The notes under the pieces: model-generated
Database searches by the model: none
Told to the model about the DNA's origin: nothing
What the model saw: the letters and a program-made list of their open reading frames with translations, nothing else
Source of the DNA: an uncultured Flavobacteriales bacterium
Lineage (GTDB): Bacteria; Bacteroidota; Bacteroidia; Flavobacteriales_D; Crocinitomicaceae
Direction: 5' to 3'
Assembly: GCA_913054135.1 (NCBI GenBank)
Contig: CAJXJK010000004.1
Coordinates: 186,001-250,000 of the forward strand
Length of the DNA stretch: 64,000 bases
In this document: positions 647 to 25,447 of the stretch, in pieces
Layout: each line of letters opens with the position of its first letter
How positions within the stretch are numbered: the stretch's first letter is position 1
Position numbers and translations under genes: made by a program

Positions 647-694
647 TACCAACGAATACCTTTCATTTAACGTTAGTAATAGAAACGCCCAGAA

Positions 695-1501: not shown

Positions 1502-1505
1502 TTTC

Positions 1506-3686: not shown

Positions 3687-3696
3687 TTGTGCAACA

Positions 3697-3704: not shown

Positions 3705-3814
3705 CTCATATGAAATTAAAGAATAGCTCTCAACGCAAATCAAGATCTAAAAACGGCGAACACTTCAGTGCGTTAATTGTTATTTAATAACAATCGTCTT
3801 ATTACACATTCATT

Positions 3815-4312: not shown

Positions 4313-4313
4313 A

Positions 4314-5240: not shown

Positions 5241-5341
5241 AAGTCACAAATAATAGAAGGTTTTAATACTCTGAACCAAAGAAATATAAAAAAGTTCAAA
5301 TAATTTGAACAAATGTAGCAAGTAGTTGTAATCGAAAAGAC

Positions 5342-6508: not shown

Positions 6509-6584
6509 CGTAATTCAGACACGCCACTGACCAATCTCAACAACTAGAGAATCAATCATACGCACCTTTGTAATAAAAAGGAAA

Positions 6585-7094: not shown

Positions 7095-7169
7095 AAATGT
7101 TTGTTGAAGATTAATGCTGCTTTATTGATTTACTTAATCCTGCTGCACTAATCATATTAACTTTATTAG

Positions 7170-7619: not shown

Positions 7620-7688
7620 GAATATACAGTCTAAGATTTATCTTGCCGTTTCACAGATGAAAGATAATGAGTTTAGTCTTGGGAATAG

Positions 7689-8030: not shown

Positions 8031-8031
8031 A

Positions 8032-9252
8032 TTATTCGCAAAAGCAAGCTTTAGAACCTTTGCCTCCTTTTTCAATTAATTCTCCTGTCTCAGAGAACTT
8101 ATAAGAAACTCCAGCTTTTTTGAATTCAATGTAATAAGCAGATGGAGCAAAATAACTCAAGCCGCATAAGCATTCATATGTTGGCTTAATTATCGTTTCT
8201 CCTTCAGTTGTGATTAGGCCATACAAACCATTCTTCACGACAATATAACATTTGAAATCGAGGTTTCCTTTGATTCTAGGCCCGTCCATTATGGATGTAT
8301 ACACTCTCGGTATTACTTCCTCATATTGCTTATTTAAGACTCCCCATTTGTTGTCTCTTTTATAAAAATAAACATCTCCTTTTTTCTCAAAGGACTGATA
8401 TCTGGGACCCAGCTGTTTTAAATTCTTATCTAAGAAGTAAATGTAATGTTCGGTTGTTACCTTGTTCGAATCTTTTAAAACTCTAGGAATAGAGCTATAC
8501 TTAAAAGGCAGAGTTGTTTGTCCTTTGATATTGATGTATCCGCGCTTAAGATATTCGTTCATCACATAGATGTGCTCTTCATCTTGAATGATGTATGAAA
8601 TCAGTTTCCACTTGAAAGGAATGATCGTTTTACCCTTATGATTTACTGCTCCATAATAACTTCCTGGTTCATTTTTTCTTAGCGTTAGAACGCCTTTTGA
8701 ATTGAATTTAAATTGATCACCATCAGCATGCACTGCAATGTATTCAATTGGTAAAACGACTTTTAAATCAGAATCAAGGAGGCCCCAATCCTTTTGAGAT
8801 TCAGTTACCAAAAATGTCCCTTCATAATGATCTTCTACCAAATAGGTTGTTTTAACTGATCCAGTTGAATCTAAGAGTTCAAGAGTTGCATCTTCTGCAG
8901 CTGACCATTCGTGATTCTTTGAAGAGAAACCTTTTAGCATTACCCTTCCGCTTTTTGTCATCAATGACAATTCTCCTGAACCAGGATCTACCATTTGTGA
9001 TCGGTCTTTTGAAATGAATCTCCATTTCCCATCTAGCCTAACAGGTAAGGGATAAGTGATTGGCTTTAATTCGGTTGGATTTCCAAGTGAATCTCTCTTT
9101 GAAACTATACACCAACACTCTTCATACAAGGGCTTCATCAATGATGTCCCTTTTCCATCTTCATAACTGAGTCCACCATTTCCTACACTCATTACCTGAG
9201 CGAAAGAAGAACTAAGTAGTAAAAATGATAGAGAAAATAAAAGAGCTTTCAT
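8032..9252 (-). CDS. WG-repeat secreted protein
   Basis: A 406-residue protein with a signal peptide (MKALLFSLSFLLLSSSFAQ). It carries about five degenerate WG repeats: WGLLDSDLKVVLPIEY near residue 155, YGAVNHKGKTIIPFKW near 200, RGYINIKGQTTLPFKY near 237, WGVLNKQYEEVIP near 303 and YGLITTEGETIIKPTYE near 341. WG repeats fold as short beta hairpins, and are common in Bacteroidota exported proteins, where they are thought to bind other proteins or glycans. The C-terminal end ACFCE has two close cysteines. It follows ruvX by 19 bases. Confidence 0.85.
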   Translation of the reverse strand: MKALLFSLSFLLLSSSFAQVMSVGNGGLSYEDGKGTSLMKPLYEECWCIVSKRDSLGNPTELKPITYPLPVRLDGKWRFISKDRSQMVDPGSGELSLMTKSGRVMLKGFSSKNHEWSAAEDATLELLDSTGSVKTTYLVEDHYEGTFLVTESQKDWGLLDSDLKVVLPIEYIAVHADGDQFKFNSKGVLTLRKNEPGSYYGAVNHKGKTIIPFKWKLISYIIQDEEHIYVMNEYLKRGYINIKGQTTLPFKYSSIPRVLKDSNKVTTEHYIYFLDKNLKQLGPRYQSFEKKGDVYFYKRDNKWGVLNKQYEEVIPRVYTSIMDGPRIKGNLDFKCYIVVKNGLYGLITTEGETIIKPTYECLCGLSYFAPSAYYIEFKKAGVSYKFSETGELIEKGGKGSKACFCE

Positions 9253-9271
9253 GTTAGAGTATACTGAATTC

Positions 9272-9682
9272 TTATTTTTTGGTTTCTAAATATGATTGCA
9301 AGATGATGGTAGCACTAATTTCATCCACTAATCCCTTGTTCTGTCTTTGCTTCTTTTTAAGCCCAGAATCAATCATAGTTTGAAATGCCATTTTTGAAGT
9401 GAAACGTTCATCAACCATATGCACTTCTAACTCAAAAGTTGTGCCTAGTTTTTTATACAAACCTCTTACATGAGCAGAACTATCGGTCTCAGAACCATCT
9501 AACCTCTTGGGTTCGCCGAGAACGAAGGCTTCAACATCATTTTTTGAAAGATAGTCTTTTAGAAAAGTGAATAGATCGTGCGTTTTAACAGTGGTTAAGC
9601 CAGAAGCGATAATTTGTAAATCATCAGTTACCGCAATTCCTGTTCGTTTGGTTCCGTAATCTAACGCAATGATTTTTGCCAT
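9272..9682 (-). CDS. ruvX: RuvX (YqgF) Holliday junction resolvase-like nuclease
   Basis: A 136-residue protein of typical RuvX length. RNase H-like landmarks are visible: LDYGTKRTGIAVTD with the first acidic residue D8, VLGEP near residue 76, MVDERFTSKMA near residue 100 and a final DEISATIILQ motif with the last acid. In E. coli YqgF matures the 16S rRNA 5' end; some homologues cut Holliday junctions. The ATG shares one base with the stop of the NhaC gene (TAATG), so the two are likely co-translated. Confidence 0.95.
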   Translation of the reverse strand: MAKIIALDYGTKRTGIAVTDDLQIIASGLTTVKTHDLFTFLKDYLSKNDVEAFVLGEPKRLDGSETDSSAHVRGLYKKLGTTFELEVHMVDERFTSKMAFQTMIDSGLKKKQRQNKGLVDEISATIILQSYLETKK

Positions 9683-11652
9683 TACTCTACTTTTTTACCG
9701 ACCAGTTCAATGACCAAAATTATGGCTCCGAATCCTAAGACGAAAGCCAATAAAGGTGGAAATCCAAGAGCGGTAGGTATTGTTCCACAAATGATAGCAA
9801 TACCACCAACAGTTAAGGCATAAGGAATTTGGGTTCTAACGTGATCAATATGATTACATCCACTAGCTAGGGATGAAAGAATGGTTGTATCTGAAATTGG
9901 CGAACAGTGATCTCCTAATACTGACCCGGCAAGAACTGCACTTACTGTATTGTAGAATATTGCCATTGAATCCGGTCCGTCAAAGCCAGCTTTCATACAA
10001 ACTGCCCATGCTGCTGGTAAGATAATAGGATATACAAGCGCCATAGTTGACCAAGAAGATCCAGTTGAAAATGCTACAAATCCAGCTAAAACAAATGTTA
10101 TGGCAGGAATCGTCCAATAAGGTATTCCACCCTGATCAAGCACTCTAGTAATAAAGTCAGCAGTATGCATTTCATCAGTAACCATTGCTAGTGCCCAAGC
10201 CAGAATCAATATCATCAAGGCTGGAATCATAGTTTTGAATCCAGAAATTGCTGTACCAACAGTATCTTCTAGATTCATAATTTTCTGACCTATTGTCAAG
10301 AACATTGCCGCTACTAGAGCTGCTAATGAAGACCATAACAAGGCTACGTATGAATCTGCGGATCCAATTAAAGTTCCGAGTTTACGTGTAAACGAGTCAA
10401 TATTAGAATCATAAACGCTCAACTTTGACCAAATAGAACCCCATCCATCAGTTTTGATTCCTTCTGCTGCCAATTCAGCCGAGAGTGAATCAAAGCCCGT
10501 AATTACCAAACCTAAGAGGGTACCAAGAACGATAATAGCAACAGGTATTACTGCATTGTATGCACGATATTTAATCCCTTCAATAGGTGCTACATCTTCT
10601 AATTCAGTTAAATCTCCGTGATTATCTTCTTCATTCACGACCTCTCCTCCTCTTGCACGGCGCTCTGCCTTTAACATTGCACCATAATCTTTACCTCTAT
10701 ACACCAAGTAAAAAATGAAAAATAATGTCAAAATTGGATAGAATGAATATGCCAGACTGTTTAAAAAGATTGAATATACTCCCTCTGAAATTGCTTCACC
10801 ATCAGCATTAATTTTATCCAACCCATTGCTTATATAACCAAGCTCAGCACCAATCCAAGTAGTAACGAATGCGATAGCAGAAACCGGAGCCGCAGTAGAA
10901 TCAACTATATAGGCTAACTTTTCTCTTGATATCTTTAACTTATCAGTGATAGCCCTCATGGTATTCCCTACAACCAGTGTATTCGCGTAATCATCAAAGA
11001 AAATTGCTATTCCTAAAAACCAAGTTGCCAATTGACCGTTTCTAGCAGTATTTGCAAAACGAGCAATTCCGTTTACAATTCCCTGCATTCCACCGTTTTT
11101 CGAAATCAAGGCTACAATTCCTCCAATAATAGTTGAGAAAAGAATAACACTCAAATGCCCTGAATCGTTGAGGGCACCAATAATGTAAGTATCTATAATC
11201 TTAAAAAAGCCTGTAAAAATCCCTGTCCATCCTTCGGCGTAAGCTCCCATTATAGCCCCACCCAAAAAGATTCCTGAAACCAAAGAAAAGATCACTTCTT
11301 TAAAAACCAGTGCTAGAATAATTGCAAGAAGAGGTGGTAAAATTGACATCCAAAGAGGGATGTATGAAGGTTTTGTCTTGGATTCAACCTCATAACCATC
11401 TACTTTTCCGTTACCACTTTCTTTAAGAATAGGATAAATTACGAAGGTCTCCTCCTCTTCCATCACTTCAACAGAGTCGCCATCAAAAACGACATGAGAA
11501 GGAACTGCGAGAGTATCAAAATCAAGTTCGACCCTTGTTTCTACTCCATCAAAAGCAATATCAGGATATGACAATACTAACTTATCATTGGTGAAACCCA
11601 CCGTTGAAAATAAGACAGATAGAATAAAAAGGAGATTGAGTTTTCTCAACAT
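9682..11652 (-). CDS. NhaC-family Na+/H+ antiporter with periplasmic N-terminal extension
   Basis: A 656-residue antiporter. The longest frame begins at 11703, but ATG at 11652 gives a clean signal-like start (MLRKLNLLFILSVLFSTVGF) and avoids overlap with the upstream gene, so I chose it. Before the first transporter helix (IPLWMSILPPLLAIILAL) are about 75 residues rich in Val, Asp and Glu that should face the periplasm. The core has about twelve helices with the family words IFFDDYANTLVVGNTMR, DSTAAPVSAIAFVTTWIG and LGDHCSPISDTTILSS. A hydrophilic cytoplasmic loop with Glu/Asp residues follows residue 340. Substrate (Na+/H+ or an organic acid such as malate/lactate) cannot be fixed. Confidence 0.88.
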   Translation of the reverse strand: MLRKLNLLFILSVLFSTVGFTNDKLVLSYPDIAFDGVETRVELDFDTLAVPSHVVFDGDSVEVMEEEETFVIYPILKESGNGKVDGYEVESKTKPSYIPLWMSILPPLLAIILALVFKEVIFSLVSGIFLGGAIMGAYAEGWTGIFTGFFKIIDTYIIGALNDSGHLSVILFSTIIGGIVALISKNGGMQGIVNGIARFANTARNGQLATWFLGIAIFFDDYANTLVVGNTMRAITDKLKISREKLAYIVDSTAAPVSAIAFVTTWIGAELGYISNGLDKINADGEAISEGVYSIFLNSLAYSFYPILTLFFIFYLVYRGKDYGAMLKAERRARGGEVVNEEDNHGDLTELEDVAPIEGIKYRAYNAVIPVAIIVLGTLLGLVITGFDSLSAELAAEGIKTDGWGSIWSKLSVYDSNIDSFTRKLGTLIGSADSYVALLWSSLAALVAAMFLTIGQKIMNLEDTVGTAISGFKTMIPALMILILAWALAMVTDEMHTADFITRVLDQGGIPYWTIPAITFVLAGFVAFSTGSSWSTMALVYPIILPAAWAVCMKAGFDGPDSMAIFYNTVSAVLAGSVLGDHCSPISDTTILSSLASGCNHIDHVRTQIPYALTVGGIAIICGTIPTALGFPPLLAFVLGFGAIILVIELVGKKVE

Positions 11653-11689
11653 GTTAGCAAAAATAACAAAAGATTGACTTCTGCCACAT

Positions 11690-12295
11690 CTAATGACCGG
11701 CACTAAAAGCAGGCAAGAAAATATTATTGATTGAATCTTTCATTTCTGGCTTCACAAAATGATTATTTATTTCTTCAACATCTACTGGCTCGTATTTTTT
11801 CCCTTGCCACTCATGTCTTATCGCCACCACACCTAAATCAGGGTCGTCATAACCAATTAATAAATCACTGTAAGTTGTTTGATCAGTTCTTAACTCAATT
11901 AAATGTCCCAAATATTGATTCACGATCTGATATTTACCAAAGTAATTCTCAATAATAACAACTTGGTGCACTGGAGCATTGTATAAGCCTGGAATCATTT
12001 CTACAATGAAACCTGCATCATAATCCATAGTTGGTCTATGATCGAATATTCTAAAAAAATCATTTGAACAAGGTGGCATTGTTAAAACCGTGTCGTTAGT
12101 GGTGCAGATTTGCAACTGCTCCATAATCGGAATTACCTCATCAGATAAAACTGGATAATCATCACTTACGTAAGTTGTTTCTGATTTGAATACTTCTTCG
12201 CTTGTCGTTTCCTCGTCAGCCGCATCTTCACTGCATGAAGACAAGCCGGCAATAACAGGAAGAAGTATAAAACATAACTTTGATACTGACCTCAT
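11690..12295 (-). CDS. lipoprotein, unknown function
   Basis: A 201-residue lipoprotein. The longest frame starts at a TTG (12313) inside the upstream gene; ATG at 12295 gives the signal MRSVSKLCFILLPVIAGLSS followed by Cys, so I use it. After an acidic linker the protein has a compact region with FFRIFDHRPTMDYDAGFIVE and VVIIENYFGKYQIVNQYLG; no family was recognised. It sits 7 bases after the GIN-domain gene and 37 before the NhaC gene. Its acidic exported nature and position suggest an envelope role beside the antiporter, but this is only context. Confidence 0.7.
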   Translation of the reverse strand: MRSVSKLCFILLPVIAGLSSCSEDAADEETTSEEVFKSETTYVSDDYPVLSDEVIPIMEQLQICTTNDTVLTMPPCSNDFFRIFDHRPTMDYDAGFIVEMIPGLYNAPVHQVVIIENYFGKYQIVNQYLGHLIELRTDQTTYSDLLIGYDDPDLGVVAIRHEWQGKKYEPVDVEEINNHFVKPEMKDSINNIFLPAFSAGH

Positions 12296-12302
12296 AATAA
12301 GC

Positions 12303-12989
12303 TTACTTATCAAATTCTTTAATTACCCCTTTAAGTGTAGCTTTCTCTGTAAAATTCTTTTTGTCTCCATCAAAAATGTATTTGATCGTTCCAATTGATG
12401 TTTTCAAATCCATTTTTTCAGTGGCATGGCAGCTAATATCGCCTCCAGATGAAATTTTGGCAACTACCGTTTTAGCCACAACCTCTTTACCACTCACAAA
12501 TCCACCAGCGCTTACTTTATAGTCAGCAATTTCAACTGCACCACTTAATCTAATAGTTCCCCCAGATAGAATTGATGCCTCTACAGATTTACATGCTAAT
12601 TGTGCATGAATAACAGCATCTGTTGCGCAACTTAAGGTAATCTTATCTCCTTCTAATGGTTTTTTAGTTTCTAACCAACCTCCATTTCTACAAGTAATCT
12701 CAACAATTGAAGTGTAGGTGATGTAAATTTTTAATCCCAGTTTTTTAAGCGAGTTTCCTTTGGTCGTAATCTTAAGGTCAGCTCCCTTTTGAATAAATTC
12801 AACCTCTTCATCTAAAAGCTCAGCATCAGTGTTGACAACTTTAGCTCCTTCTTTCTCCCCTTTCAGAAGATAAACTTCAAAATTACCTGCAACTGTAATG
12901 GTATTGAATGTTGTCAGTTCTTTTTCAAATTCTCCTGCAAAAGTGATGTTCATTGCTAGGATAAGGGTCAAGGTTAAAATTCTTTTCAT
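12303..12989 (-). CDS. head GIN domain (DUF2807) secreted protein
   Basis: A 228-residue protein with a signal peptide (MKRILTLTLILAMNITFAG). The start of the mature domain, FNTITVAGNFEVYLLKG, is the typical DUF2807 opening, and the rest is a run of short beta strands with periodic Gly/Ser (ILSGGTIRLSGAVEIADYKVSAGG), as expected for a right-handed beta roll. DUF2807 domains are described as putative autotransporter adhesin head domains, but single-domain members such as this are common in Bacteroidota and their role is unknown. It follows HMG-CoA lyase by 6 bases. Confidence 0.88.
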   Translation of the reverse strand: MKRILTLTLILAMNITFAGEFEKELTTFNTITVAGNFEVYLLKGEKEGAKVVNTDAELLDEEVEFIQKGADLKITTKGNSLKKLGLKIYITYTSIVEITCRNGGWLETKKPLEGDKITLSCATDAVIHAQLACKSVEASILSGGTIRLSGAVEIADYKVSAGGFVSGKEVVAKTVVAKISSGGDISCHATEKMDLKTSIGTIKYIFDGDKKNFTEKATLKGVIKEFDK

Positions 12990-12995
12990 AAGTTC

Positions 12996-13850
12996 TTATT
13001 TAGGGAAGACTTCTAGAGCCATCATCATTGATTTGTTGAACTCAGTGTCAACAATATTTGTACCAATATTATTCTCATTAAAGTACGACAACATTCCTTC
13101 AGTCGGCATATTTCCAGTTAGATCATCTTTGGCCATTGGGCAGCCTCCAAATCCTTTAATTGCGCCATCAAATCTTCTACATCCGGCTTCATAAGCTGCT
13201 GCCACTTTTTCTTGAACTGAATCAGGGGTAGAATGTAAGTGTGCTCCAAATTCAACATTGGGTAGCTCACTCATTAAACCTGAAAACAATTCTGTAATAT
13301 TTTGTCTATTAGAAACGCCAATTGTATCAGACAAAGCCAAAATTTCAATTCCCAAATCTTTATGCAGTCTTCTACTCCACTTTGCTGCAACTTCTAAATC
13401 CCAAGGATCTTCGTAAGGGTTACCAAAGGCCATTGAAATATAGACCACTAACTTCTTATTATTCGCTACACATTGATTTTGAATTGCAGCCACACGTTCA
13501 AATGATTCTTCAATTGAAGAATTCGTATTTCTTTTTTGAAATGTTTCAGAAATTGAAAAAGGAAAACCGAGGTAATCGATTTCTTCAAAATTACAAGCAT
13601 CATCTGCTCCTCTTTTGTTGGCAACAATTGCCAATAGTTTTGAATTCGTCTCTGCCAAATTTAACTGAGAAAGCACGTCAGCAGTATCTTTTAGTTGCGG
13701 AATTGCCTTAGGCGAAACAAAACTACCAAAGTCAATTGTATCGAATCCCACCTTCAAAAGTTGATTAATGTAGTCTGCCTTTACCTCCGTAGGGATAAAA
13801 TCATGCAGACCCTGCATTGCATCACGTGGACATTCAATTAATTTAAGCAT
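12996..13850 (-). CDS. hydroxymethylglutaryl-CoA lyase
   Basis: A 284-residue TIM-barrel enzyme of the HMGL-like family. It splits HMG-CoA into acetoacetate and acetyl-CoA in leucine breakdown. Catalytic landmarks: R9 and D10 in [20 protein letters not shown] with the metal-binding histidines near residue 200, and [15 protein letters not shown] near residue 238 with the active-site Cys loop. Length and order fit bacterial HMG-CoA lyases. It overlaps the end of pyrD by 8 bases, so it is very probably on the same transcript, although the pathways are not related. No other leucine catabolism genes are in the window. Confidence 0.92.
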
Positions 13851-14883
13851 TCGTTTTTGCTAGTATTGCTTTGTTTATTCGTTTCACTAATTTGGGTCCT
13901 TCATAAATGAAACCCGTATACACCTGAACCAAAGTAGCTCCGGCTTCAATTTTTTCAAGAGCATCTTTTTCTGAGTGGATTCCACCAACTCCAATAATCG
14001 GGAAGCTCTTATTTGACTTTTCAGAAAGATAACGAATTACTTCGGTACTTCTATTGTTCAAAGGCTTACCACTTAAACCTCCGTTCCCTATCGCATTCAA
14101 TTCTTCTTCAGTAGTTTTTAGGCCAGTTCGTTGAATACTTGTATTCGTAGCTATAATCCCATCAATTTTTGTGGCTGCCACAATTTCAATCACTTCATCT
14201 AATTGTCCGTCATTTAAATCAGGAGCAATTTTCAAAAGGATAGGTTTAGGTTGGTCGTATTGAGCATTCAATTCTTTCAAATCTCCTAATAGATCAATTA
14301 AGAAATCTTGATCTTGTAATTTTTTTACATCCCCAACATTTGGGCAACTCACATTCACTACGAAATAATTCACGTAATCATGAAGTGCCTTAAAGTTATA
14401 TATGTAGTCGGGCTTGGAAGATTCATTGGGGGTAGCTGTATTTTTACCGATATTACCTCCAACAATTATTTTAGTTTTTCTCTTTGCTAACTTCTTAACA
14501 GCTTCATCAACTCCAGCATTATTAAAGCCCATTCTATTTATAATTCCTTGGTCTTTTTTTAGCCTGAACAATCTTGGACGCTCATTACCTGCTTGAGGCT
14601 TTGGAGTAACAGTTCCGATTTCAACAAATCCAAATCCGAAATCTTCTAAATGATTAATCAGCACAGCATTCTTATCAAACCCTGCCGCAATACCTACTGG
14701 GTTTTTGAATTTAATCCCAAAGAGCTCACGCTCTAACTTTTTATCATTAGTTTGATAGATTGATTTACGAATCAACTTAACTCCAGGTATCCAAGAAGAA
14801 AATTTTATTGATTTAAATGTGAAATGATGTACTGATTCAGGATCAAAAAGGAATAAAATAGGTCGCAAAATCGTTTTATACAT
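13843..14883 (-). CDS. pyrD: dihydroorotate dehydrogenase (quinone), class 2
   Basis: A 346-residue class 2 enzyme that oxidises dihydroorotate to orotate with quinone as acceptor in pyrimidine synthesis. It begins with the membrane-associating helix typical of class 2 ([21 protein letters not shown]). FMN and substrate sites are visible: [68 protein letters not shown] and IGVGGI. The catalytic base of class 2 is a serine, consistent with the NVSCPN loop. It is the first gene of the minus-strand run that reaches to 7689. Confidence 0.96.
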
Positions 14884-14962
14884 CTGTGCTGTAAGCTTTC
14901 ATACAAAGTTAAAAAACTATAGCAGAATATTATGCAGACCCAAGAATTATTTAACGAATTTT

Positions 14963-15880
14963 TTAGTAGCGAGCTTTATATCTCCATTTTATTTTCTTCG
15001 TTCGCTTATAGGTTATGTTCCTAACCGCAGATATATTAAAGAAAAAGTAAGCATCATCTTGCTTCTCATCACCTCTAATTTGTCCCGGAGCTGTCCATCC
15101 TGCGAACGCCCCGTTAGATGGGTCAGCCTCAGCTGGTGCCGATAAACCATTGCCTTGAAAATCGTAGTAAACTCCCGAAACATCATCAAAATAATCTGTG
15201 AAGGTTTTGGTATAACTCAATTCAAAAGTTACTCTCCAAAGAGCGTCAATCCCAACTTTACATCCCATTCCGAAAGGAATTCCGTAATTGAACATTCCGT
15301 ATTTTTTTGGGCCACCAGGTAAACCTTGGCCACCAGTATTAAGAGGTCTCAAGAAAGCGCCGCCCTTAACCTTTGGTAAGTACAAGAAGCCAGAAATTCC
15401 CGAGAATACATACACCAAGGTGTTTTTATTCCTCATTCCTTTCAGTCCTTTAATACTGTGTCTTTTTCCAAAATGTTCATTGTTGAATATGATAAACTCT
15501 AGATGTTGAGAGAGTTCAAACATGTGGGTAGAAAAATTCAAATTTCGATTTCTTCTGAAGGGCTCGTTCGTAGTTTTGTCATCCCCTGAGAACCATCCGT
15601 ACTGAAGAATTGTTTTAGTTGACCAGAGAGGTCTTAACCTATATCTATATCCAAAGTGACCTCCAATTCTTGTTTGAGAAAATTCAAGATCTACAAAAGA
15701 GTAATCAGTACCAATTCTATTCAGACCTCCCAAATCAGTTAAAGTCTGGGTAGCACCTACTCCAAAGAAAATCTCTTTTCTTTGGTGCTTAAAGTAATCA
15801 TTGGTTGTGAAGTTCGTGGGCTGAGCCTGACTTCCAAACGTCAATAACGTGCAAAATAATATTAAGAATAGTTTTTTCAA
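14963..15880 (-). CDS. outer membrane beta-barrel protein, DUF6089-like
   Basis: A 305-residue protein with a signal peptide (MKKLFLILFCTLLTFGSQAQ). The mature part has alternating aromatic/polar strands ending in aromatic residues (FFGVGATQTLTDLGG, TRIGGHFGYRYRLRPLW, and a final FFFNISAVRNITYK). The glycine-rich GGLNRIG loop and overall length resemble the DUF6089 family of Bacteroidota barrels, but I am not certain of that assignment. It follows a 79-base gap after pyrD on the upstream side and is a separate unit. Confidence 0.7.
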   Translation of the reverse strand: MKKLFLILFCTLLTFGSQAQPTNFTTNDYFKHQRKEIFFGVGATQTLTDLGGLNRIGTDYSFVDLEFSQTRIGGHFGYRYRLRPLWSTKTILQYGWFSGDDKTTNEPFRRNRNLNFSTHMFELSQHLEFIIFNNEHFGKRHSIKGLKGMRNKNTLVYVFSGISGFLYLPKVKGGAFLRPLNTGGQGLPGGPKKYGMFNYGIPFGMGCKVGIDALWRVTFELSYTKTFTDYFDDVSGVYYDFQGNGLSAPAEADPSNGAFAGWTAPGQIRGDEKQDDAYFFFNISAVRNITYKRTKKIKWRYKARY

Positions 15881-15990
15881 GTTCCTCTACAAATATCCAC
15901 TACAAAAATAGCTTTTTTATGAAGAAGACCAATAGATTAAGACGTTTATTAACTATTTGTTGTCGATAATTTTACATTGCCGCACGATAA

Positions 15991-16794
15991 TTAGTTCATA
16001 AGCACATATCTCAAAGGGTTTAAGCGAACTACGTCCCCTTTATCAGTTTTACCTTTGATATTCTCAAAGAAAATGGTTTCACCACCACCGATTTTTTTCA
16101 GTGCTGCTTTCATCTCATCATTTAACTGATTGCTCTCTTCTTCAAATACTTTCCCTCCTAATCCATCAATTAAATGCAATTCAAAGTGGATTACGCTTAC
16201 ATCTGACTCAGTCGTGATTCCTTTATTATCAAACAATTCATCTTTTGAAATTGATCCGTTTATTTTTCCTCCAATTCTTGGAAGTAACATTGAATTCAAA
16301 TCTTTTTTCTTAGACTTATCGTCAATAACTACTGCAATAGCAGATTGATCATCCACCTCATCATCAATGATGATTTCAGCATCTGTAATTTCTTTTTCAG
16401 GATTTTCGTTTAAAGTAGGAGTGTTATCTATATTCTCTGTATTTGATGAGTAAAGTAAAGTTTGTTGAACCAAGTTATCCAGTTGCTTCGAGCTGGACTC
16501 ACCTGAGTTAATTGCTAAAGGATTGTTATCTGGAAGGATAATCTCCATTGGCGCTTCGGTGATGAGCTCACTGTAATGTTCAGGAACATCATCAGGAGTG
16601 TCTTGAAATGCAATAACGGTTCCTACTGCAATACCAACTGAAGCCAAACCTGCGGTTCCGAAAAACCATGGACTCTTATAAAACGGTTTGCTCATTAGAG
16701 CATGATTATTCATCAATCCGTCAAAGTCTTTTTTGGCTTGAATAGATTTAGAATCAACTGCTGGTCTATCCAAATTAATTTTTAATCGTTTCAT
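15991..16794 (-). CDS. single-pass membrane protein next to sigma factor, putative anti-sigma
   Basis: A 267-residue protein. A cytoplasmic N-terminus of about 45 residues (MKRLKINLDRP..., KKDFDGLMNNHALMSK) is followed by one helix (WFFGTAGLASVGIAVGTVIAF, residues 43-63) and a long acidic periplasmic domain. It lies 159 bases downstream of a sigma factor and reads the same way, the arrangement of a sigma/anti-sigma pair. There is no zinc-finger (Hx3Cx2C) motif, so the assignment rests on topology and position only. The C-terminal domain (residues 180-267) begins with GKINGSISKDELF. A terminator-like hairpin at 16913-16943 stands between the two genes, so they may not always be co-transcribed. 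Confidence 0.6.
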   Translation of the reverse strand: MKRLKINLDRPAVDSKSIQAKKDFDGLMNNHALMSKPFYKSPWFFGTAGLASVGIAVGTVIAFQDTPDDVPEHYSELITEAPMEIILPDNNPLAINSGESSSKQLDNLVQQTLLYSSNTENIDNTPTLNENPEKEITDAEIIIDDEVDDQSAIAVVIDDKSKKKDLNSMLLPRIGGKINGSISKDELFDNKGITTESDVSVIHFELHLIDGLGGKVFEEESNQLNDEMKAALKKIGGGETIFFENIKGKTDKGDVVRLNPLRYVLMN

Positions 16795-16912
16795 CTGTTC
16801 AATTTAAATTATCTATCGACAGTTTTACTTTGAGATAATTAAAATAACTGCTTTTCTAAATTTAGAAGTTATTTCAAGCATGTCCATATTCACTGTCATT
16901 AAAAGTAATAAC

Positions 16913-16943
16913 GGCCTCTCTTGTTTTGGTAACAAAAGAGGCC
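16913..16943 (-). terminator. hairpin after sigma factor gene
   Basis: A 13-bp stem (one mismatch) with a 5-base loop TTGGT; arms GGCCTCTCTTGTT and AACAAAAGAGGCC on the plus strand. It begins 11 bases after the sigma factor stop codon. On the minus strand it is followed by GTTATTACTTTT, a weak U-rich tract, so it may be an attenuator rather than a full terminator. Confidence 0.6.
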
Positions 16944-16953
16944 ATCTAATTAT

Positions 16954-17520
16954 TTATTTTTCAAAAATTTTTCTCATTTTTTTCACAACTCGGTGAGCTT
17001 TCACCTTGGCGTTATTCTCAGTAATATCTAGAATGTCACCAATTTCTCTGAAAGATCTTTTTTCGAAGAATCTCAACTCTACCATTTGCACGTCATCTTC
17101 TGATAATTGCGAAATAATATTGAGCAATACTTTTCGATTCTCGTCTGTTGTATCTTCTTCCCAATCTTCAATCATCTCGAAAATGTGCATGCTTTCGACA
17201 TTTACTGTTCGTCTAGCTTTCTTATCTCTAAATGATTGATATAATTCGCTTTTTGCTATTCTATATAACCAAGAAGCAAAAGGCACTCCTCTATATTCAT
17301 ACTTATGAATGTTATTTAATGCTTTAAGAAACACTTGTGATGTTACATCATAAGCTGTTTCCTTATCATCCATTCTTTGATAAATGTATCTGAAAATTTG
17401 TTCGTAATATTTGTTGTACAGTGGCTCAAATCCCCTCGGGTCCTTTTTTGCGAACTGCACCCACTTCAGCTCTTCTTTGAGCCGATCCTCTGTGTGATGA
17501 TAAATCGGGTTTACTGACAT
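16954..17520 (-). CDS. sigma-70 family (ECF-type) sigma factor
   Basis: A 188-residue sigma factor with only regions 2 and 4. Region 2 covers about residues 30-100: PLYNKYYEQIFRYIYQRM, then TAYDVTSQVFLKALNNI and PFASWLYRIAKSELYQSFRDKK (the -10 recognition helix). Region 4 is at about 130-185: LSEDDVQMVELRFFEKRSF, REIGDILDITENNAKVKAHR. It directs RNA polymerase to a small regulon. The neighbour downstream is a single-pass membrane protein, a possible partner. The upstream gene is divergent, with a 225-base shared intergenic region. Confidence 0.9.
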   Translation of the reverse strand: MSVNPIYHHTEDRLKEELKWVQFAKKDPRGFEPLYNKYYEQIFRYIYQRMDDKETAYDVTSQVFLKALNNIHKYEYRGVPFASWLYRIAKSELYQSFRDKKARRTVNVESMHIFEMIEDWEEDTTDENRKVLLNIISQLSEDDVQMVELRFFEKRSFREIGDILDITENNAKVKAHRVVKKMRKIFEK

Positions 17521-17626
17521 AGTTCTTAGTTTGGTTTAATTCTCTTTGCAATTGTATAATGTAATTCGGTTGTTTGGTTACAGAGTATGTTGCAATTTGC
17601 TTGCCACAAATCTTAAACGTCTATAA

Positions 17627-17647
17627 AATCTACTTATTGTGTAGATT
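17627..17647. repeat. inverted repeat between sigma factor and SanA-like gene
   Basis: Two 7-base arms, AATCTAC and GTAGATT, separated by 7 bases (TTATTGT), perfectly complementary. It lies in the 225-base intergenic region between divergent genes, about 107 bases from the sigma factor start and 99 from the SanA-like start. It could be an operator for either, or chance; the rest of this intergenic stretch shows nothing I can name. Confidence 0.35.
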
Positions 17648-17745
17648 ATGTCAAATAATTTTCAATGGGCAACAAATAAAAAACGACTATCTATTTAAAT
17701 AAGTTACAACTTTTTAGTCTAAATAAAAAATGTAAAATTCAATCT

Positions 17746-18357
17746 ATGAGAGTATTTACACGAATTTCTATCGCATCTTTTCTTTTTTTGACTGTATTGA
17801 TTTGGGGCGCGAATTCAAAGATTTGCAACTTTTCAGAGAACAAAATGACTGATGACATTAATGAAATTGAAGCATGTGAAACCGGTCTGGTACTGGGAGC
17901 ATCAAAATATTATAGAAATGGAAATGTCAATCAATACTTTCAATACCGCATGGAAGCTGCCGCCGAACTTTATCATTCGGGAAAGGTAAATCAACTCATA
18001 GTCTCTGGTGACAATCATATCGTTTCTTATGATGAACCAACTGACATGGCCGAATCTCTGATCGCTCTGGGTGTCCCTGATGAGAACATTATTAGAGACT
18101 ATGCGGGTTTTAGGACGCTAGACTCTGTTATTAGAGCGAAAAAAGTTTTCAACTGCGAAAAATTAATAATCGTTAGTCAAAAGTTCCATAATCAAAGAGC
18201 CGTATTTGCGGCTAACCATCACGGAATTCAAGCGCAAGGCTATAACGCTCAAGACATTCAGAGCAACAGGAACCTTACACACCTCAGAGAGATTGGTGCT
18301 AAATTCTTGATGATCCTTGACCTATACGTATTTAACCGTCAGCCAAAATTTTTATAA
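17746..18357 (+). CDS. SanA/YdcF-like DUF218 protein
   Basis: A 203-residue protein with one N-terminal membrane helix (ISIASFLFLTVLIWGA) and a DUF218 domain. Landmarks are TGLVLGASKYYRNG near residue 45, a RMEAAAELYHSGKVNQLIVSGDN stretch at residues 66-88, EPTDMAESLIALGVPDENI and, near residue 140, VSQKFHNQRAVF. These match SanA, an inner-membrane protein needed for vancomycin exclusion in E. coli at high temperature, whose exact activity is not known. It probably sits in the inner membrane with its domain in the periplasm. Confidence 0.85.
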   Translation: MRVFTRISIASFLFLTVLIWGANSKICNFSENKMTDDINEIEACETGLVLGASKYYRNGNVNQYFQYRMEAAAELYHSGKVNQLIVSGDNHIVSYDEPTDMAESLIALGVPDENIIRDYAGFRTLDSVIRAKKVFNCEKLIIVSQKFHNQRAVFAANHHGIQAQGYNAQDIQSNRNLTHLREIGAKFLMILDLYVFNRQPKFL

Positions 18358-18405
18358 ATAAACCATAGCTAATCGATTCTTCTTTCATAATTTAGAGGTC
18401 AAATA

Positions 18406-18735
18406 GTGAAAAAGCTACTACTAACTATATCAGCATTGACAGTACTAATGACTTCTTGTAAGAAAGAAGTTGTTTCTTGTATTCAGATGGATAACACAAC
18501 ATCCTCTACTACGAGCCCTATTGTTTTCACTTCTTGTTCTGAGAATACTTTGAGTTATATATGGTCTTTTTCCGGACCAGCTGGAGCGCCGGCAAATTCT
18601 CTTCAATTCTCTGAACCTATATTTGATCACACTTTTACAGTGCCTGGAACCTATACGGTTGAGCTTGTAGCTTATGAGAGGTATTCTTGGATTGGTGATC
18701 AAAGTACGGCTACCGCCACCTTTACGATTAATTAA
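18406..18735 (+). CDS. small PKD-like lipoprotein
   Basis: A 109-residue protein starting at GTG (MKKLLLTISALTVLMTSCKK), with lipobox Cys at residue 18. The mature part has a PKD-like beta sandwich: SYIWSFSGP, then FDHTFTVPGTYTVELVAYE, the latter being the classic PKD end motif. Such domains mediate binding between proteins or glycans on the outside of the cell. The gene overlaps the convergent neighbour by 8 bases, so the two 3' ends share sequence. I place it at the outer or inner membrane as a lipoprotein; binding partner unknown. Confidence 0.75.
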   Translation: MKKLLLTISALTVLMTSCKKEVVSCIQMDNTTSSTTSPIVFTSCSENTLSYIWSFSGPAGAPANSLQFSEPIFDHTFTVPGTYTVELVAYERYSWIGDQSTATATFTIN

Positions 18736-20086
18736 ACTCGTAACAACCTAAATCAGGAGAAACTCTTGCATTCCCTTCTAAGTCAGTCACAATAAAGGTT
18801 GATAAACCTATGTTTCGTAGAATTGAGGTTTCTAACAAATGAAAATCTTTCATTGTAACATCAACATAACCCGCATCACCTGACCAAATTACATTACTAT
18901 AATTTGTATAGTCATAGATTTCATCTCGCTTAAAATAGTTTACCCCAAAAGTCATATTTACAGAACAATCAAGCGTATCCATCACAAACTCTTTATCTAT
19001 AGTACCGTCCACAATATTATTTTCAAAGGTGGCGGTCATAGGCCTACAATAGGTAATGTTTTCTACTTCAAAATGATTTGCAACAGCTAATGCTGGGCCT
19101 GCCCTACTCCCACTCCAATAATTTATAAAGTCACAATGTGTTATTGTGTAATCGCCACCGGCAAATAAGTATGCTGAACTTATACCCGCATCTCCGAAGA
19201 AACAATTTGATGCGTTAATTATTGGGCCCGCGTTAGCGTTGAATCCAAAAAAGTCATTGTTATCAATAATAGTATTTGTCAAATTCAAGGTAACAGCTGA
19301 TGCAGTAGAATCAACTTGCAATCCCACTGAACCATTTTTAATTATTGCATAATCAATATTAGAAGTGTTGGCTTCAATTAACCTAATTCCCCACCACTGA
19401 CCTGAAACGTCATCATAAAAGCTTTCTAACCTATCCCCTTGAAAGACGACCTCATTTCCGTAAGATCCCTGAATGTCAATAGAAGATTTGTAGACGATAA
19501 GCTGAGAATTCTTATGACAAAACACTTCAGTACCTGCAGGAATTGTCAAATTCAAATTTGAATCAATACCTGGGAATCCGACCGCAACAGTATTATATAA
19601 TACATGTGGTTTATCATTTGCCCAATTGCCTGAAACTACTTCACTATTATGGAAATAAGCGTCCTGACCCCAAACATCTAAGTTCACATATTGACTTAAA
19701 CCATTTGTTTCAAACCGAATTGAATCAGAGATTATGAGTGGATTTGTAGCATTATTGACTACTAAAGTAACCTCAACGAAAGCAAACAAAGAGTCATTAG
19801 CTGGAATCTCTACTTCTGAATGGAAGTCAGCTGAAATACCGTCTAAGTTTATTCTAAAAGGTGAAGATGCTCCACCCATCAGCTCTACAGCATCAATAAT
19901 AATGGGTTGATTGTTATTGTTATAAATCTTTAACCTCTTGGTTGTTGAACCCACAGTAGTAAACACTGTATCAAATAAGACCGTATCTTTAGAGAAATCT
20001 AAATGGTCTTTAGTAAATGAATTATCCTTTTTACAAGACGTAAAGGTAAGCAGTACTAAAGCTATTATAGAAAGGAATAATTTCAT
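18728..20086 (-). CDS. large lipoprotein with beta-helix, unknown function
   Basis: A 452-residue lipoprotein (MKLFLSIIALVLLTFTSCKK). Residues 20-150 form an Ig-like region with repeated strands (VFTTVGSTTKRLKIYNN, IIIDAVELMGG). Residues 170-400 look like a right-handed beta helix: LNLTIPAGTEVFCHKNS, GSYGNEVVFQGDRL, WWGIRLIEANTSNIDYAIIK, TNTIIDNNDFFGF. The C-terminus has NARVSPDLGCYEF, an ending I associate with the choice-of-anchor Q / parallel beta-helix proteins of Bacteroidota. Function is not known; glycan binding is a guess. Confidence 0.75.
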   Translation of the reverse strand: MKLFLSIIALVLLTFTSCKKDNSFTKDHLDFSKDTVLFDTVFTTVGSTTKRLKIYNNNNQPIIIDAVELMGGASSPFRINLDGISADFHSEVEIPANDSLFAFVEVTLVVNNATNPLIISDSIRFETNGLSQYVNLDVWGQDAYFHNSEVVSGNWANDKPHVLYNTVAVGFPGIDSNLNLTIPAGTEVFCHKNSQLIVYKSSIDIQGSYGNEVVFQGDRLESFYDDVSGQWWGIRLIEANTSNIDYAIIKNGSVGLQVDSTASAVTLNLTNTIIDNNDFFGFNANAGPIINASNCFFGDAGISSAYLFAGGDYTITHCDFINYWSGSRAGPALAVANHFEVENITYCRPMTATFENNIVDGTIDKEFVMDTLDCSVNMTFGVNYFKRDEIYDYTNYSNVIWSGDAGYVDVTMKDFHLLETSILRNIGLSTFIVTDLEGNARVSPDLGCYEFN

Positions 20087-21847: not shown

Positions 21848-24295
21848 ATGTCTGATATTTTTGAAAAAGACTTCATTGACCTAAGTAATATAATAGACCA
21901 AGAACCTGAATTCATTCCTTTAATTTCTGAAGAAGAAGAGGATAAAATGAATAAAGAAGATGTTCCCACAGAACTTCCAATTTTACCAATAAGAAATAAT
22001 GTTCTTTTTCCTGGAGTTGTAATTCCGATTACAGTAGGAAGAGACAAATCGATTAAGCTCATTGAAGAAGCATATAATGGAGACAAAACCATTGGTGTTG
22101 TTTCACAAATTAAAGCTTCGGTTGAAAATCCTGAGCCAATTGATTGTCATAAAATAGGAACTGTTGCCCACATCATTAAGCGATTGAAAATGCCTGATGG
22201 TTCAACAACTGTTATCATTCAAGGTAAAAGAAGATTTCAAGTAGAACATTTTGTACAAACAGAACCTTATTTTAAGGCCAAGGTAACAGGATTGAAAGAT
22301 GCTAAAATTGATCCGGCTACTGATAAAAATCAAGCTCTTGTTTCTTCAATGAAAGATATGGCAATGCGTATCATTAAAGAGAATCCGAACATTCCTTCTG
22401 AAGCGACATTTGCTATTAAAAATATTGAAAGTCCGACTTTCTTAGTCAACTTTATTGCTTCAAACCTAAGTTCTGAAGTACCTAAAAAGCAAGAGTTACT
22501 TGAGCAAAACGAAATAATTAAAAGAATTGAATTAGTGCTTGAACAGTTATCTCACGAGATAAAAATGTTAAGCATGAAAAATGAAATCCATTCTAAGGTA
22601 AAGTTAGACATGGATCGTCAGCAAAGAGAATACTTCTTGAATCAACAAATGAGAACCATCCAAGATGAATTAGGTGGTAACCCAGTTGAAAATGAAGTAA
22701 ACGAATTTAGAAAAAGAGCTGTAGATAAAAAGTGGAGCAAGAAGGTTGAAAAAGCCTTTAACAAAGAGCTTCAAAAGCTTGGGAGAATGAATCCGCAAGG
22801 AGCAGAGTATTCCGTTCAGCTCAATTACATTGATTTAATTCTTGAACTTCCTTGGGGAGATTATTCAAAGGATGATTTCAACTTAAAGAAAGCATCAAAA
22901 ATTTTAGATCGTGATCACTTTGGCTTAGAAAAAGTGAAAGAGAGAATACTTGAATATCTTGCTGTGCTTAAACTAAAGGGAGATATGAAATCTCCAATTC
23001 TTTGCTTGTATGGACCTCCGGGAGTTGGTAAAACTTCTTTAGGGAAATCAGTTGCTGAGGCTATTGGACGAAAGTATGTGAGAATGTCTTTGGGTGGATT
23101 GCATGATGAATCTGAAATAAGAGGCCATAGAAGAACCTACATAGGCGCCATGCCAGGTAGAATTCTTCAAAACCTAAAAAAGGCTGGGAAATCTAATCCG
23201 GTTTTTGTCTTAGACGAAATTGATAAAATTGGTCGTAGCCATCAAGGTGACCCATCCTCAGCACTATTAGAAGTTCTAGATCCTGAGCAAAACAGTAAAT
23301 TCAATGACAATTTTGTTGAGTTAGATTACGATTTATCAAATGTTCTATTCATTGCTACTGCTAACAACTTAGGTTCAATTCAAGGCCCGTTAAGAGATAG
23401 AATGGAGATTATTGAGGTGAATGGATATACGGTTGAAGAGAAAATTCAAATTGCCAAGAAACACTTAATTCCAAAGCAAATTGAAGCGCATGGTTTGTCG
23501 AAAAAAGACATTAACATACCAACTAGCGTTTTAGAGAAAATTGTTGAAGAATACACTGGTGAATCTGGTGTTAGAGGACTTGAAAAAAGAGTTGCGAAGC
23601 TAGTTCGAAATAGAGCAAAGGAAATTGCAATGAAAGAAAAGTATATTGCGAAAATTTCAGTATCTCAACTACTTGATATTTTAGGACCTGCTTATTCTAA
23701 GGCCAAATACATTGGCAATGAATATGCAGGTGTTGTTACAGGTTTAGCTTGGACTAGTATTGGAGGAGATATCTTGAATATTGAAACCAGCCTAACTAAA
23801 GGTAAAGGAAAACTTACTTTGACAGGAAGTCTTGGAGATGTAATGAAAGAATCGGCTGTATTAGCGCTTCAATATTTAAAAGCTCATTCTGCTTTGGTAG
23901 GATTAAAACAAGAATTATTTGATAATTGGGATGTGCATTTACATGTACCCGAAGGAGCCACTCCAAAAGATGGACCTTCTGCGGGTATTACTATGTTGAC
24001 AGCTATGGCTTCGGCATTTACACAAAGAAAAGTGAAGGCAAACTTAGCAATGACAGGAGAGATTACGCTAAGAGGAGCTGTGCTACCAGTTGGTGGAATC
24101 AAAGAGAAAATTTTAGCCGCAAAGAGAGCTAATATCAAAGAAATAATTCTTTGCCAAAAGAATGAAAAAGACATCTTAGATATTAATCCAAAATATTTAG
24201 AAGGACTTAAGTTTCATTATGTGACGCACATGGATGAAGTATTGAAGCTTGCTTTAATGAAGCAAAGAGTGAAGAATCCAAAATCAATCAAATGA
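21848..24295 (+). CDS. lon: Lon protease
   Basis: An 815-residue ATP-dependent serine protease that removes misfolded and regulatory proteins in the cytoplasm. The N-terminal substrate domain covers residues 40-310 (LPILPIRNNVLFPGVVIPI). Walker A GPPGVGKT is at 389-396, Walker B VFVLDE at 452-457. The protease domain has the catalytic Ser at 711 in KDGPSAGIT and Lys at 754 in GGIKEKILAA, with the usual 43-residue spacing. Length fits bacterial Lon A. The stop codon overlaps the start of the Fe-S protein (ATGA), so the two are probably translated together. Confidence 0.97.
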   Translation: MSDIFEKDFIDLSNIIDQEPEFIPLISEEEEDKMNKEDVPTELPILPIRNNVLFPGVVIPITVGRDKSIKLIEEAYNGDKTIGVVSQIKASVENPEPIDCHKIGTVAHIIKRLKMPDGSTTVIIQGKRRFQVEHFVQTEPYFKAKVTGLKDAKIDPATDKNQALVSSMKDMAMRIIKENPNIPSEATFAIKNIESPTFLVNFIASNLSSEVPKKQELLEQNEIIKRIELVLEQLSHEIKMLSMKNEIHSKVKLDMDRQQREYFLNQQMRTIQDELGGNPVENEVNEFRKRAVDKKWSKKVEKAFNKELQKLGRMNPQGAEYSVQLNYIDLILELPWGDYSKDDFNLKKASKILDRDHFGLEKVKERILEYLAVLKLKGDMKSPILCLYGPPGVGKTSLGKSVAEAIGRKYVRMSLGGLHDESEIRGHRRTYIGAMPGRILQNLKKAGKSNPVFVLDEIDKIGRSHQGDPSSALLEVLDPEQNSKFNDNFVELDYDLSNVLFIATANNLGSIQGPLRDRMEIIEVNGYTVEEKIQIAKKHLIPKQIEAHGLSKKDINIPTSVLEKIVEEYTGESGVRGLEKRVAKLVRNRAKEIAMKEKYIAKISVSQLLDILGPAYSKAKYIGNEYAGVVTGLAWTSIGGDILNIETSLTKGKGKLTLTGSLGDVMKESAVLALQYLKAHSALVGLKQELFDNWDVHLHVPEGATPKDGPSAGITMLTAMASAFTQRKVKANLAMTGEITLRGAVLPVGGIKEKILAAKRANIKEIILCQKNEKDILDINPKYLEGLKFHYVTHMDEVLKLALMKQRVKNPKSIK

Positions 24296-24495
24296 AAACG
24301 TACGAAAAAGAAGACATCAAAGTAGTTTGGGAACAAGAGAAATGTAAGCATGCGGCAGTTTGCGCTAAAGGTTTACCTTCAGTTTTTAAACCAAAAGAAA
24401 AACCTTGGATTCAAACAGAAGGAGCATCAAAACAAGAAATTATTGATGTTGTGAGTAAATGTCCTTCTGGCGCTTTGAGCATAAAAAAAGATTAG
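24292..24495 (+). CDS. YjdI-type [4Fe-4S] mono-cluster protein
   Basis: A 67-residue protein of the divergent mono-cluster ferredoxin family (Fer4_19, YjdI). Cysteines are C18 and C24 in EKCKHAAVCAKGLP and a third in SKCPSGALS near residue 57. Only three are conserved, as in other family members. It overlaps lon by 4 bases (ATGA), which suggests coupled translation. E. coli yjdI is unstudied; members are thought to carry a single cluster. Whether the pairing with Lon is functional (for example in redox control of the protease) is only inference. Confidence 0.85.
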   Translation: MKTYEKEDIKVVWEQEKCKHAAVCAKGLPSVFKPKEKPWIQTEGASKQEIIDVVSKCPSGALSIKKD

Positions 24496-24707
24496 TCGTT
24501 TGGTTATCAGAAGAATAAAATCTTCTATTTATTGCAAAGCTAATTTGACATTTAGGATTTACATTTAAGACATAGCTGCGTTTGTGTAAAATCTATGTTG
24601 ATTTCATCTTTTTGTAAAAAAATGATCAAACATTCTTTTTTTTTCACTTTATCAAAACATTTGACTTACCTTGTAACAAGAAATCAATTTAGTTGATTCA
24701 AAAACAT

Positions 24708-24824
24708 TCTTCATTTGCCGAAGATGAAAAAGTTATCGAGAAATCGATAATACATAAGTAATAGGGTTTACTTAAAATTTAAATTAATCACAGCTCTCGA
24801 GAAATCGGGAGCTGTGTTTTTTTT
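24708..24824 (+). ncRNA. candidate structured RNA with three stem-loops and a strong terminator
   Basis: This lies in the 343-base gap 24496-24838, which holds no credible ORF. Three stem-loops follow one another: 24708-24724 (TCTTC / GAAGA, 7-base loop), 24733-24750 (TTATCG / CGATAA) and 24789-24816 (11-base arms, one G-U pair) followed by eight T residues. The second and third have the same six-base loop AGAAAT closed by CG. The last is a good intrinsic terminator, but it is almost 300 bases after the yjdI stop. It may be a separate small RNA, the long 3' end of lon-yjdI mRNA, or a leader for the gene at 24839. I could not find a convincing promoter. Confidence 0.5.
24789..24824 (+). terminator. 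intrinsic terminator with T8 tract
   Basis: Stem CACAGCTCTCG / CGGGAGCTGTG (positions 24789-24799 and 24806-24816) with loop AGAAAT, then TTTTTTTT. It is very close (15 bases) to the ATG of the next gene at 24839, so that gene must start transcription inside or after it, or read-through must occur. Confidence 0.85.
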
Positions 24825-24838
24825 ATATCTTTATTTCT

Positions 24839-25447
24839 ATGAAGAAAATCTTATTAATTCTTGCCCTTTCGCTTAGCTCATCAATTGTTTTAGCTAGTGT
24901 AAATAGTCAATCGCACATTGCCGAAAAATACGATTCAATCATTGAAGAATTTGATAATGGCAAGAGTATAGATGCTGAAAATTTCTTTCGAGGAGTTGTA
25001 GAGCATGTAGTAAGAATAGAAGTGCTTTTCAGAAAAATTGAGATACTAGACAGCATACAAACAACTCCGATTGGACCTTTTAAAAAATGTATTGAAGACA
25101 TCTCTTCAGAAAGCAAAGATTTCAAGAAGATCTTAGCAAAGTACGAGAAGCCAATATTCGAATACCAAAATGCTTTTGTATCATTGACTCACAAATGGGT
25201 GAATGAAATCATGTACATGATTGATACGCACATCTCAAAACTTATAGCGTTTTATATCATCAAGGATGAAGATTGGACTGACGATCAAATTGCTCTGTAC
25301 GATTTCTACGCCGAAGATTACAAAGTGTACGCAGCAATAGATGATTTATGGGTTGAAGCCCAATATACTTTTGCTGAGAAAAATGACTTCGAATTAGCTG
25401 AAGAGGAAATTAATGTAAATGATCGCATAGAGAACGAGAAAGAGTAA
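24839..25447 (+). CDS. secreted helical protein, unknown function
   Basis: A 202-residue protein with a signal peptide (MKKILLILALSLSSSIVLAS). The mature protein is rich in Glu, Asp, Lys and Ile and appears entirely helical (SIIEEFDNGKSIDAENFF, HVVRIEVLFRKIEILDSIQ). Only a single Cys (near residue 83) is present. I recognise no family. A TATCTTTA element 5 bases upstream of the ATG is close to a -7 box, but a leader so short is unusual. The gene begins immediately after the terminator described at 24789. Confidence 0.6.
   Translation: MKKILLILALSLSSSIVLASVNSQSHIAEKYDSIIEEFDNGKSIDAENFFRGVVEHVVRIEVLFRKIEILDSIQTTPIGPFKKCIEDISSESKDFKKILAKYEKPIFEYQNAFVSLTHKWVNEIMYMIDTHISKLIAFYIIKDEDWTDDQIALYDFYAEDYKVYAAIDDLWVEAQYTFAEKNDFELAEEEINVNDRIENEKE

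Follow-up and report, generated by a model that had tools for sequence, protein, structure and literature searches.

The window, a 64,000-nt stretch of DNA, belongs to a genome (G000) of 4.05 Mb in 24 contigs. In it, lon is followed by a yjdI-like ferredoxin gene, a gap of 343 bases and a gene for a 202-aa protein; lon, yjdI and a predicted terminator near the end of the gap are co-directional. The features needed for the argument are listed below, and within the gap they derive mainly from the computed RNA fold.

21848..24295, + strand: lon, ATP-dependent protease La (TIGR00763, 920.4 bits; Pfam Lon_C and LON_substr_bdg)
24292..24495, + strand: yjdI-like Fer4_19 ferredoxin, 67 aa (PF06902, 86.4 bits), overlapping the lon stop
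24509..24526, + strand: weak AT-rich hairpin, 6 bp (2 G-C), with tail ATTTATT, 13 nt past the yjdI stop (RNA fold)
24527..24675, + strand: AT-rich unstructured spacer (fold z +0.85)
24679..24824, + strand: candidate non-coding RNA module (z -5.65; the 5′ end is a guess)
24682..24698, + strand: hairpin 0, 7 bp (RNA fold)
24710..24728, + strand: hairpin 1, 7 bp (RNA fold; the least certain, pair probability 0.71)
24732..24751, + strand: hairpin 2 (HP2), 8 bp, GAAA tetraloop, apex CGA-GAAA-UCG (-7.0 kcal/mol, pair probability 0.998)
24755..24774, + strand: 7-bp hairpin separating HP2 from the terminator (RNA fold)
24789..24824, + strand: predicted intrinsic terminator, with a 12-bp stem (24789-24816), GAAA tetraloop and T8 (24817-24824), -20.4 kcal/mol
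24826..24833, + strand: weak -7-like box TATCTTTA, 5 nt before the ATG, one mismatch to TAnnTTTG (matrix score 2.45)
24839..25447, + strand: 202-aa protein, N-terminus signal-peptide-like as judged by eye, without a match in Pfam or NCBIfam

For the stretch from the yjdI stop (24495) to the next ATG (24839), the earlier note had reported 343 bases without a credible ORF, and we agree: with ATG, GTG and TTG starts allowed on both strands, the longest ORF inside the gap is 33 aa. The hairpin at 24509-24526 was not picked up by the terminator scan. It is possible that it acts as a weak terminator, conceivably the lon-yjdI operon's own weak end. The protein encoded beyond the gap has matches in six of 39 genomes, its own included, and a paralogue with 30% identity lies on G000 contig 5 (L009). 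A pattern scan of the genome contigs for this protein gave 33 stretches, none of which was confirmed.

Terminator, fold and promoters

The hairpin at 24789-24816 had been called an intrinsic terminator with T8, and its anatomy bears this out as judged from sequence and predicted fold. The stem holds seven G-C pairs and has a computed pair probability of 0.999. It is the sole terminator-like site in 24000-25200, a segment for which shuffled sequences average 0.6. A loose terminator scan over window positions 1-20000 found 12 sites where 11.6 are expected from shuffles; since this is no excess, the call rests on the 12-bp stem and the T8. The element is apparently a genuine, ordinary stop signal, at which transcription would be expected to end in the cell.

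Its nearness to the next start codon, previously thought unusual, turns out to be common. The stem ends 22 nt before the ATG, and of 26 terminators that have a co-directional gene after them, the 24789 terminator being one of the 26, four lie closer to the start (7, 9, 14 and 19 nt). What is unusual is the distance from the preceding stop codon, which amounts to 293 nt for yjdI and 493 nt for lon, as against the usual 7-23 nt of G000 terminators: this range holds 22 of the 29 terminators with a co-directional upstream gene, the 24789 terminator being counted among the 29. The seven beyond 23 nt, again including this one, could be long 3′ ends. These counts come from 38 of the 45 hairpins in our own sample of 464 kb (made up of the window and another 400 kb of G000), with seven hairpins inside ORFs dropped and upstream ORFs of at least 80 aa considered, a limit under which yjdI falls, so that the 24789 terminator entered with its distance to lon. 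They describe only the kind visible to the scan (perfect stems, loops of 3-8 nt, T tract not absorbed by the stem), because it misses, for example, the 12-bp, 9-nt-loop hairpin behind lon in the genus-mate G001. The position of the terminator far from any stop codon is the better clue to this locus and was overlooked by the earlier note, which over-read the shared loop.

Other G000 terminators lacking a near upstream stop include L075:12004-12034, L075:12178-12203 and L083:16407-16437, the last at 363 nt from the preceding stop. Such terminators may mark further small RNAs.

The gap had also been described as a structured non-coding stretch. This holds for its 3′ part, 24679-24824 (z -5.65), and fails for 24527-24675 (z +0.85), the computed folding excess being limited to the 3′ half. 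Where three successive stem-loops had been counted, the fold of 24679-24824 gives five hairpins; the second of the three, placed at 24733-24750, is at the right site, and its extent is corrected to 24732-24751, with 8 bp including a G-U pair. Apart from HP2, the small hairpins are weak (-2.4 to -4.0 kcal/mol). The z-score of the module is in part the terminator's own contribution; with the terminator removed, 24679-24785 yields z -3.20, and two of 200 shuffles fold as well. The best 100-nt window attains z -8.06 and ranks first among the 43 intergenic regions of the 464 kb that lie between co-directional genes and measure 150-700 nt, with the runner-up at -6.76; it spans 24716-24815 and has nearly the whole terminator stem inside. 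The module lies outside coding genes, has no ORF longer than 33 aa and has a predicted terminator at its 3′ end, three features that it shares with the intergenic sRNAs of Bacteroidota.

Promoters were scored with a TAnnTTTG-type matrix, for which 271 upstream regions from G000 and G001 served as the training set. For the RNA, the highest score in 24527-24759 is 4.14, which is equalled by 59% of shuffles. The sequence TACCTTGT at 24667-24674 fits TAnnTTGY, a box described for F. psychrophilum in PMC9723704; it scores -4.5 on the TAnnTTTG-trained matrix, and by our estimate a thousand AT-rich positions would give roughly one chance match to TAnnTTGY. Position 24780 has the top-scoring site for the gene at 24839 within 60 nt of its start codon (score 5.4, equalled by 15% of shuffles). 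Across 154 upstream regions of G000 (120 nt each), 24 of 44 exact TAnnTTTG matches lie no more than 30 nt from the ATG, and boxes at 4-5 nt before it, comparable in position to TATCTTTA, account for six matches. From this clustering of boxes we take G000 for a member of the Bacteroidota. Leaderless transcripts make up 5.5% of the F. psychrophilum mRNAs with mapped starts, according to PMC9723704. A promoter of its own is possible for the RNA and for the 24839 gene alike.

The main rival of a small RNA is that the lon-yjdI mRNA simply has a long 3′ untranslated end. In that case polymerase would pass the hairpin at 24509-24526 and stop at 24824, and the hairpins of the module would only protect the message. 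The co-directional order of lon, yjdI and terminator suits this explanation, as do promoter scores that stay at chance level from yjdI to the terminator and a scan that detects no other terminator after yjdI. It sits less well with the 7-23 nt seen for 22 of the 29 sampled terminators, with a structured part that begins 184 nt past yjdI, and with the weak T-tailed hairpin already present 13 nt past the yjdI stop. We regard it as quite possible, at somewhat less than even odds.

The earlier note had further suggested a leader attenuator for the 24839 gene, that is, an attenuator or riboswitch in which an alternative structure would control the terminator. A terminator 22 nt before a start codon, with structured RNA ahead of it and a downstream gene that has no convincing promoter of its own (the 5.4 site above), could be arranged in this way. 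However, no antiterminator is apparent: in a fold of 24679-24804, which leaves out the 3′ arm, the 5′ arm of the terminator finds no partner, and two longer folds pair just four and six bases of 24789-24804, at long range. Nor is the nearness distinctive, given the four closer cases among 26, and no Rfam leader reaches its cut-off. By scan, none of the seven homologue loci of the 24839 gene has a terminator within 100 nt upstream, the one weak candidate being at -368. Because these loci lack the element by scan, attenuation is quite improbable.

The shared GAAA apex

HP2 and the terminator stem have an 11-mer, TCGAGAAATCG, in common. The shared apex had been read as a 6-nt loop, AGAAAT; the sharing stands and the loop does not, since both loops are GAAA tetraloops closed by an A-U pair. 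By sequence and predicted fold, each would place GAAA on a base pair in the manner of a GNRA tetraloop. The earlier view that such sharing goes beyond chance is upheld by the counts. Among neighbouring hairpin pairs in the 464 kb (stems of at least 7 bp, no more than 100 nt apart), the HP2/terminator pair is the one of 2872 that shares its loop and 3 bp; with stems of at least 6 bp, two of 12283 do, this pair included. Twelve dinucleotide shuffles contain no apex-sharing pair, and 295 shuffles of the 464 kb contain 14 in total, one of them with an apex of at least 10 nt. In 400 kb of G001, one of 2504 pairs shares an apex, owing to a direct repeat.

The 10-mer CGAGAAATCG has nine copies in G000 and its reversed control has eight, so that it is not over-represented genome-wide; the 12-mer with one mismatch has 12 copies, compared with 31 for the control. 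Four of the nine copies cap stems of 8, 11, 12 and 13 bp, three of these being terminators, and the remaining five cap stems of 3-5 bp. The two non-local terminators capped by the apex are on G000 contig 1, one lying 12 nt behind tRNA-Val and the other 1.6 kb further on. GAAA is the commonest loop of the terminator-like hairpins in our own sample (4 of 45, three with the shared apex), and it occurs in 25 of the 5042 stems of at least 7 bp and in one of 32 G001 terminators. In G043, a genome of the same family, the terminator at L243 reads CTGTTCTCGAGAAATCGGGAACAG, a near-identical core. The 11-mer with an unbroken T6 at 2-12 nt is confined to the 24789 locus.

These counts bear on the idea that the loop suits a dedicated partner, a protein or RNA that binds the common CGA-GAAA-UCG apex, which would be compatible with the small-RNA readings. 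Favourable to it are the non-random sharing (one real pair in 2872, and a single long apex among the 14 pairs of the shuffles), the lack of genome-wide excess of the apex (9 versus 8; 12 versus 31), the uniqueness of the 11-mer with T6 and the rarity of GAAA in G001 terminators. It is countered by the same apex on the tRNA-Val terminator and on the second one 1.6 kb on, by the CTGTTCTCGAGAAATCGGGAACAG terminator of G043, and by GAAA being the commonest terminator loop of our sample, though a minor one among all stems of at least 7 bp. TATGG and CCTAAG, two motifs from the 11-nt tetraloop receptor, were searched for in 24496-24838 and are absent from it, and no homologue of the module was found. 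Because the apex recurs on other G000 terminators, a dedicated binder is not required, and we think its existence most improbable. In our view, the two stems share an apex because a stable cap has been re-used. The element at 24789 is in this respect like other intrinsic terminators with a GNRA-type GAAA loop, with its 12-bp stem, seven G-C pairs and T8, and with its apex on two more terminators of the genome.

A scan of the genome contigs for the tandem-apex pattern gave at least 119 stretches. The 105 matches in the 80 listed loci include 16 in which both stems have at least 6 bp, and no family emerges among the matches listed. Ten of these 16 are in repeat arrays (L168, L188 and L160), and the rest are in L113, L123, L137, L145, L162 and L163. 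The two stems of L162, from a Clostridia MAG, resemble two terminators with one apex, which indicates that apex-sharing terminator pairs exist elsewhere.

Several repeats are recorded here as observations in their own right. On G000 contig 1 (L073:10905-12670), the terminator region behind tRNA-Val (10905-10980) recurs ~1.6 kb on with similar flanks, and a long reading frame lies between the copies; this may be the trace of a small insertion or of a duplication at the 3′ end of the tRNA. Two Kordia species (L163:5498-5563 and L147:3187-3250) have hairpin pairs of CCCGAGAAATCGGG or similar, ~55 nt apart, with AGTCT after each. Downstream of them a small protein is predicted, 96 aa long in L163, that presumably resembles a GIY-YIG nuclease; the pairs are perhaps a REP-like element. 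L168:42-411 and L188, from a Thermoanaerobaculia MAG, contain identical repeats, CTTTCCGCGCGAGAAATCGCGCGGCCCCATTGAAGC, with regular CRISPR-like spacing and the shared CGA-GAAA-UCG apex.

Relatives and known RNAs

Comparison with relatives, the earlier note's own test of its proposal, went against conservation. lon has a match in 58 of 60 genomes, and in the 29 lon loci other than our own that were read (235-700 nt downstream, loops of 3-10 nt) the apex never follows lon; the comparison is one across species. By scan, three of the 29 have a terminator-like hairpin after lon, none with the apex, at distances of 24 nt (L046), 293 nt (L057 of G021, 7 bp) and 39 nt and again further on (L072). The G001 locus (L045) has its 12-bp, 9-nt-loop hairpin ~32 nt after lon, visible by folding only. 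These hairpins cut both ways for the competing readings: the 293 nt of L057 matches the spacing at our locus and agrees with a long 3′ untranslated end, whereas the short distances in L046, L072 and L045 speak against it. In three other genomes of the genus the post-lon sequence differs, and in G003 yjdI is ~2.5 kb further on.

At the DNA level, 299 genomes of the order yielded no homologue; fragments of 22-45 nt in six genomes other than our own were all that the search returned. With six chosen relatives and E up to 10, the matches listed are pieces of at most 38 nt. A covariance model of the module, built from one sequence (two identical rows), was run on 200 genomes of the family and on the own genome; again no homologue was obtained, the best other match scoring 36.1 bits versus 184.2 for the module itself. 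Matches at E up to 0.01 are found in 15 other genomes. The reverse strand across our own terminator scores 32.6 bits, and the foreign matches are therefore at the level of any strong terminator. Eight foreign matches (L240-L245, L248 and L253) and three from the own genome (L256-L258) have one strong terminal terminator hairpin as their common part; GAAA loops among the matches prove nothing by number, because the model itself has GAAA loops. A plasmid search gave no match, and a phage match (81% over 16% of the query, E 0.008) was treated as chance. Conservation of sRNAs is common and not universal, 27 of the 49 high-confidence sRNAs of B. thetaiotaomicron being called strain-specific in PMC7366714.

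The differing post-lon sequence in the three genus genomes and the lack of a homologue in 299 genomes of the order and 200 of the family would also suit an ordinary terminator preceded by chance AT-rich hairpins in an intergenic remnant, with no role beyond termination. The weakness of the small hairpins other than HP2 points the same way. Nevertheless, the sequence that is left after removal of the terminator still folds better than nearly all of its shuffles (z -3.2, two of 200 as good), and we consider chance hairpins unlikely.

An Rfam search of the window gave no family at its gathering score. The best match below threshold is GibS (RF04182) at 24704-24823, with 30.7 bits compared with a gathering score of 115 (E 0.0091-0.021). 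This score is far below what membership in GibS requires, and the alignment lacks part of the single-stranded 5′ seed region. The weak Rfam matches, 15 at E up to 5 and seven at E up to 0.5, include GibS, PyrR, the L10 leader and others, and were judged to be matches to the terminator and to AT-rich sequence.

Bacteroidota carry intergenic sRNAs that end in an intrinsic terminator, as described in PMC7366714 and PMC9723704. According to the former, the studied GibS is ~145 nt long; its 5′ part is single-stranded, and it has two meta-stable hairpins as well as a terminator. The module is like these intergenic sRNAs (GibS, Rfp18) in being AT-rich, of similar length and built of small hairpins followed by a terminator; it differs from them in that the searches found neither a homologue nor an above-chance promoter. 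PMC7366714 also names 3′-UTR-derived sRNAs as a class. As a member of that class the module would use the terminator of its parent lon-yjdI mRNA. Among the matches listed for literature on Bacteroidetes terminator tetraloops and Crocinitomicaceae small RNAs, the element is absent.

A candidate small RNA

We propose that 24679-24824 is the 3′ module of a non-coding transcript, most likely a small RNA of ~100-150 nt, and that the 24839 gene forms a transcription unit apart from it; the probability of this explanation is roughly 0.45. The chance that a separate small RNA exists, whether it has a promoter to itself or is processed from the lon-yjdI message, is about even. Of the possibilities raised earlier, a small RNA and a long 3′ end of the lon mRNA both still stand, as each agrees with a structured module that ends in a terminator.

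If the module belongs to a small RNA, that RNA would be either independently transcribed or released by cleavage from the 3′ end of the lon-yjdI message. Its own 3′ end would be set by the terminator, and the stems would protect it. Regulation, if any, would proceed by base pairing through the single-stranded segments 24699-24709 and 24775-24788. The GAAA apex may act as a stability device that the RNA has in common with other terminators of G000. A more elaborate version, in which a species-specific sRNA of ~100-150 nt, having arisen beside lon, bears one and the same GAAA apex on an internal hairpin and on the terminator, lets a host RNA-binding factor hold both ends in this way and is tied to the protein quality-control operon, appears highly improbable.

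The module is a modest candidate and not a new class of RNA. Should it be merely a long 3′ end, it would be ordinary. To our knowledge, non-coding RNAs are sparsely charted in Bacteroidota other than Bacteroides and Flavobacterium, and if the module is a small RNA it would add one more candidate to them. Terminators distant from any stop codon offer a cheap route to listing further sRNA candidates in this genome.
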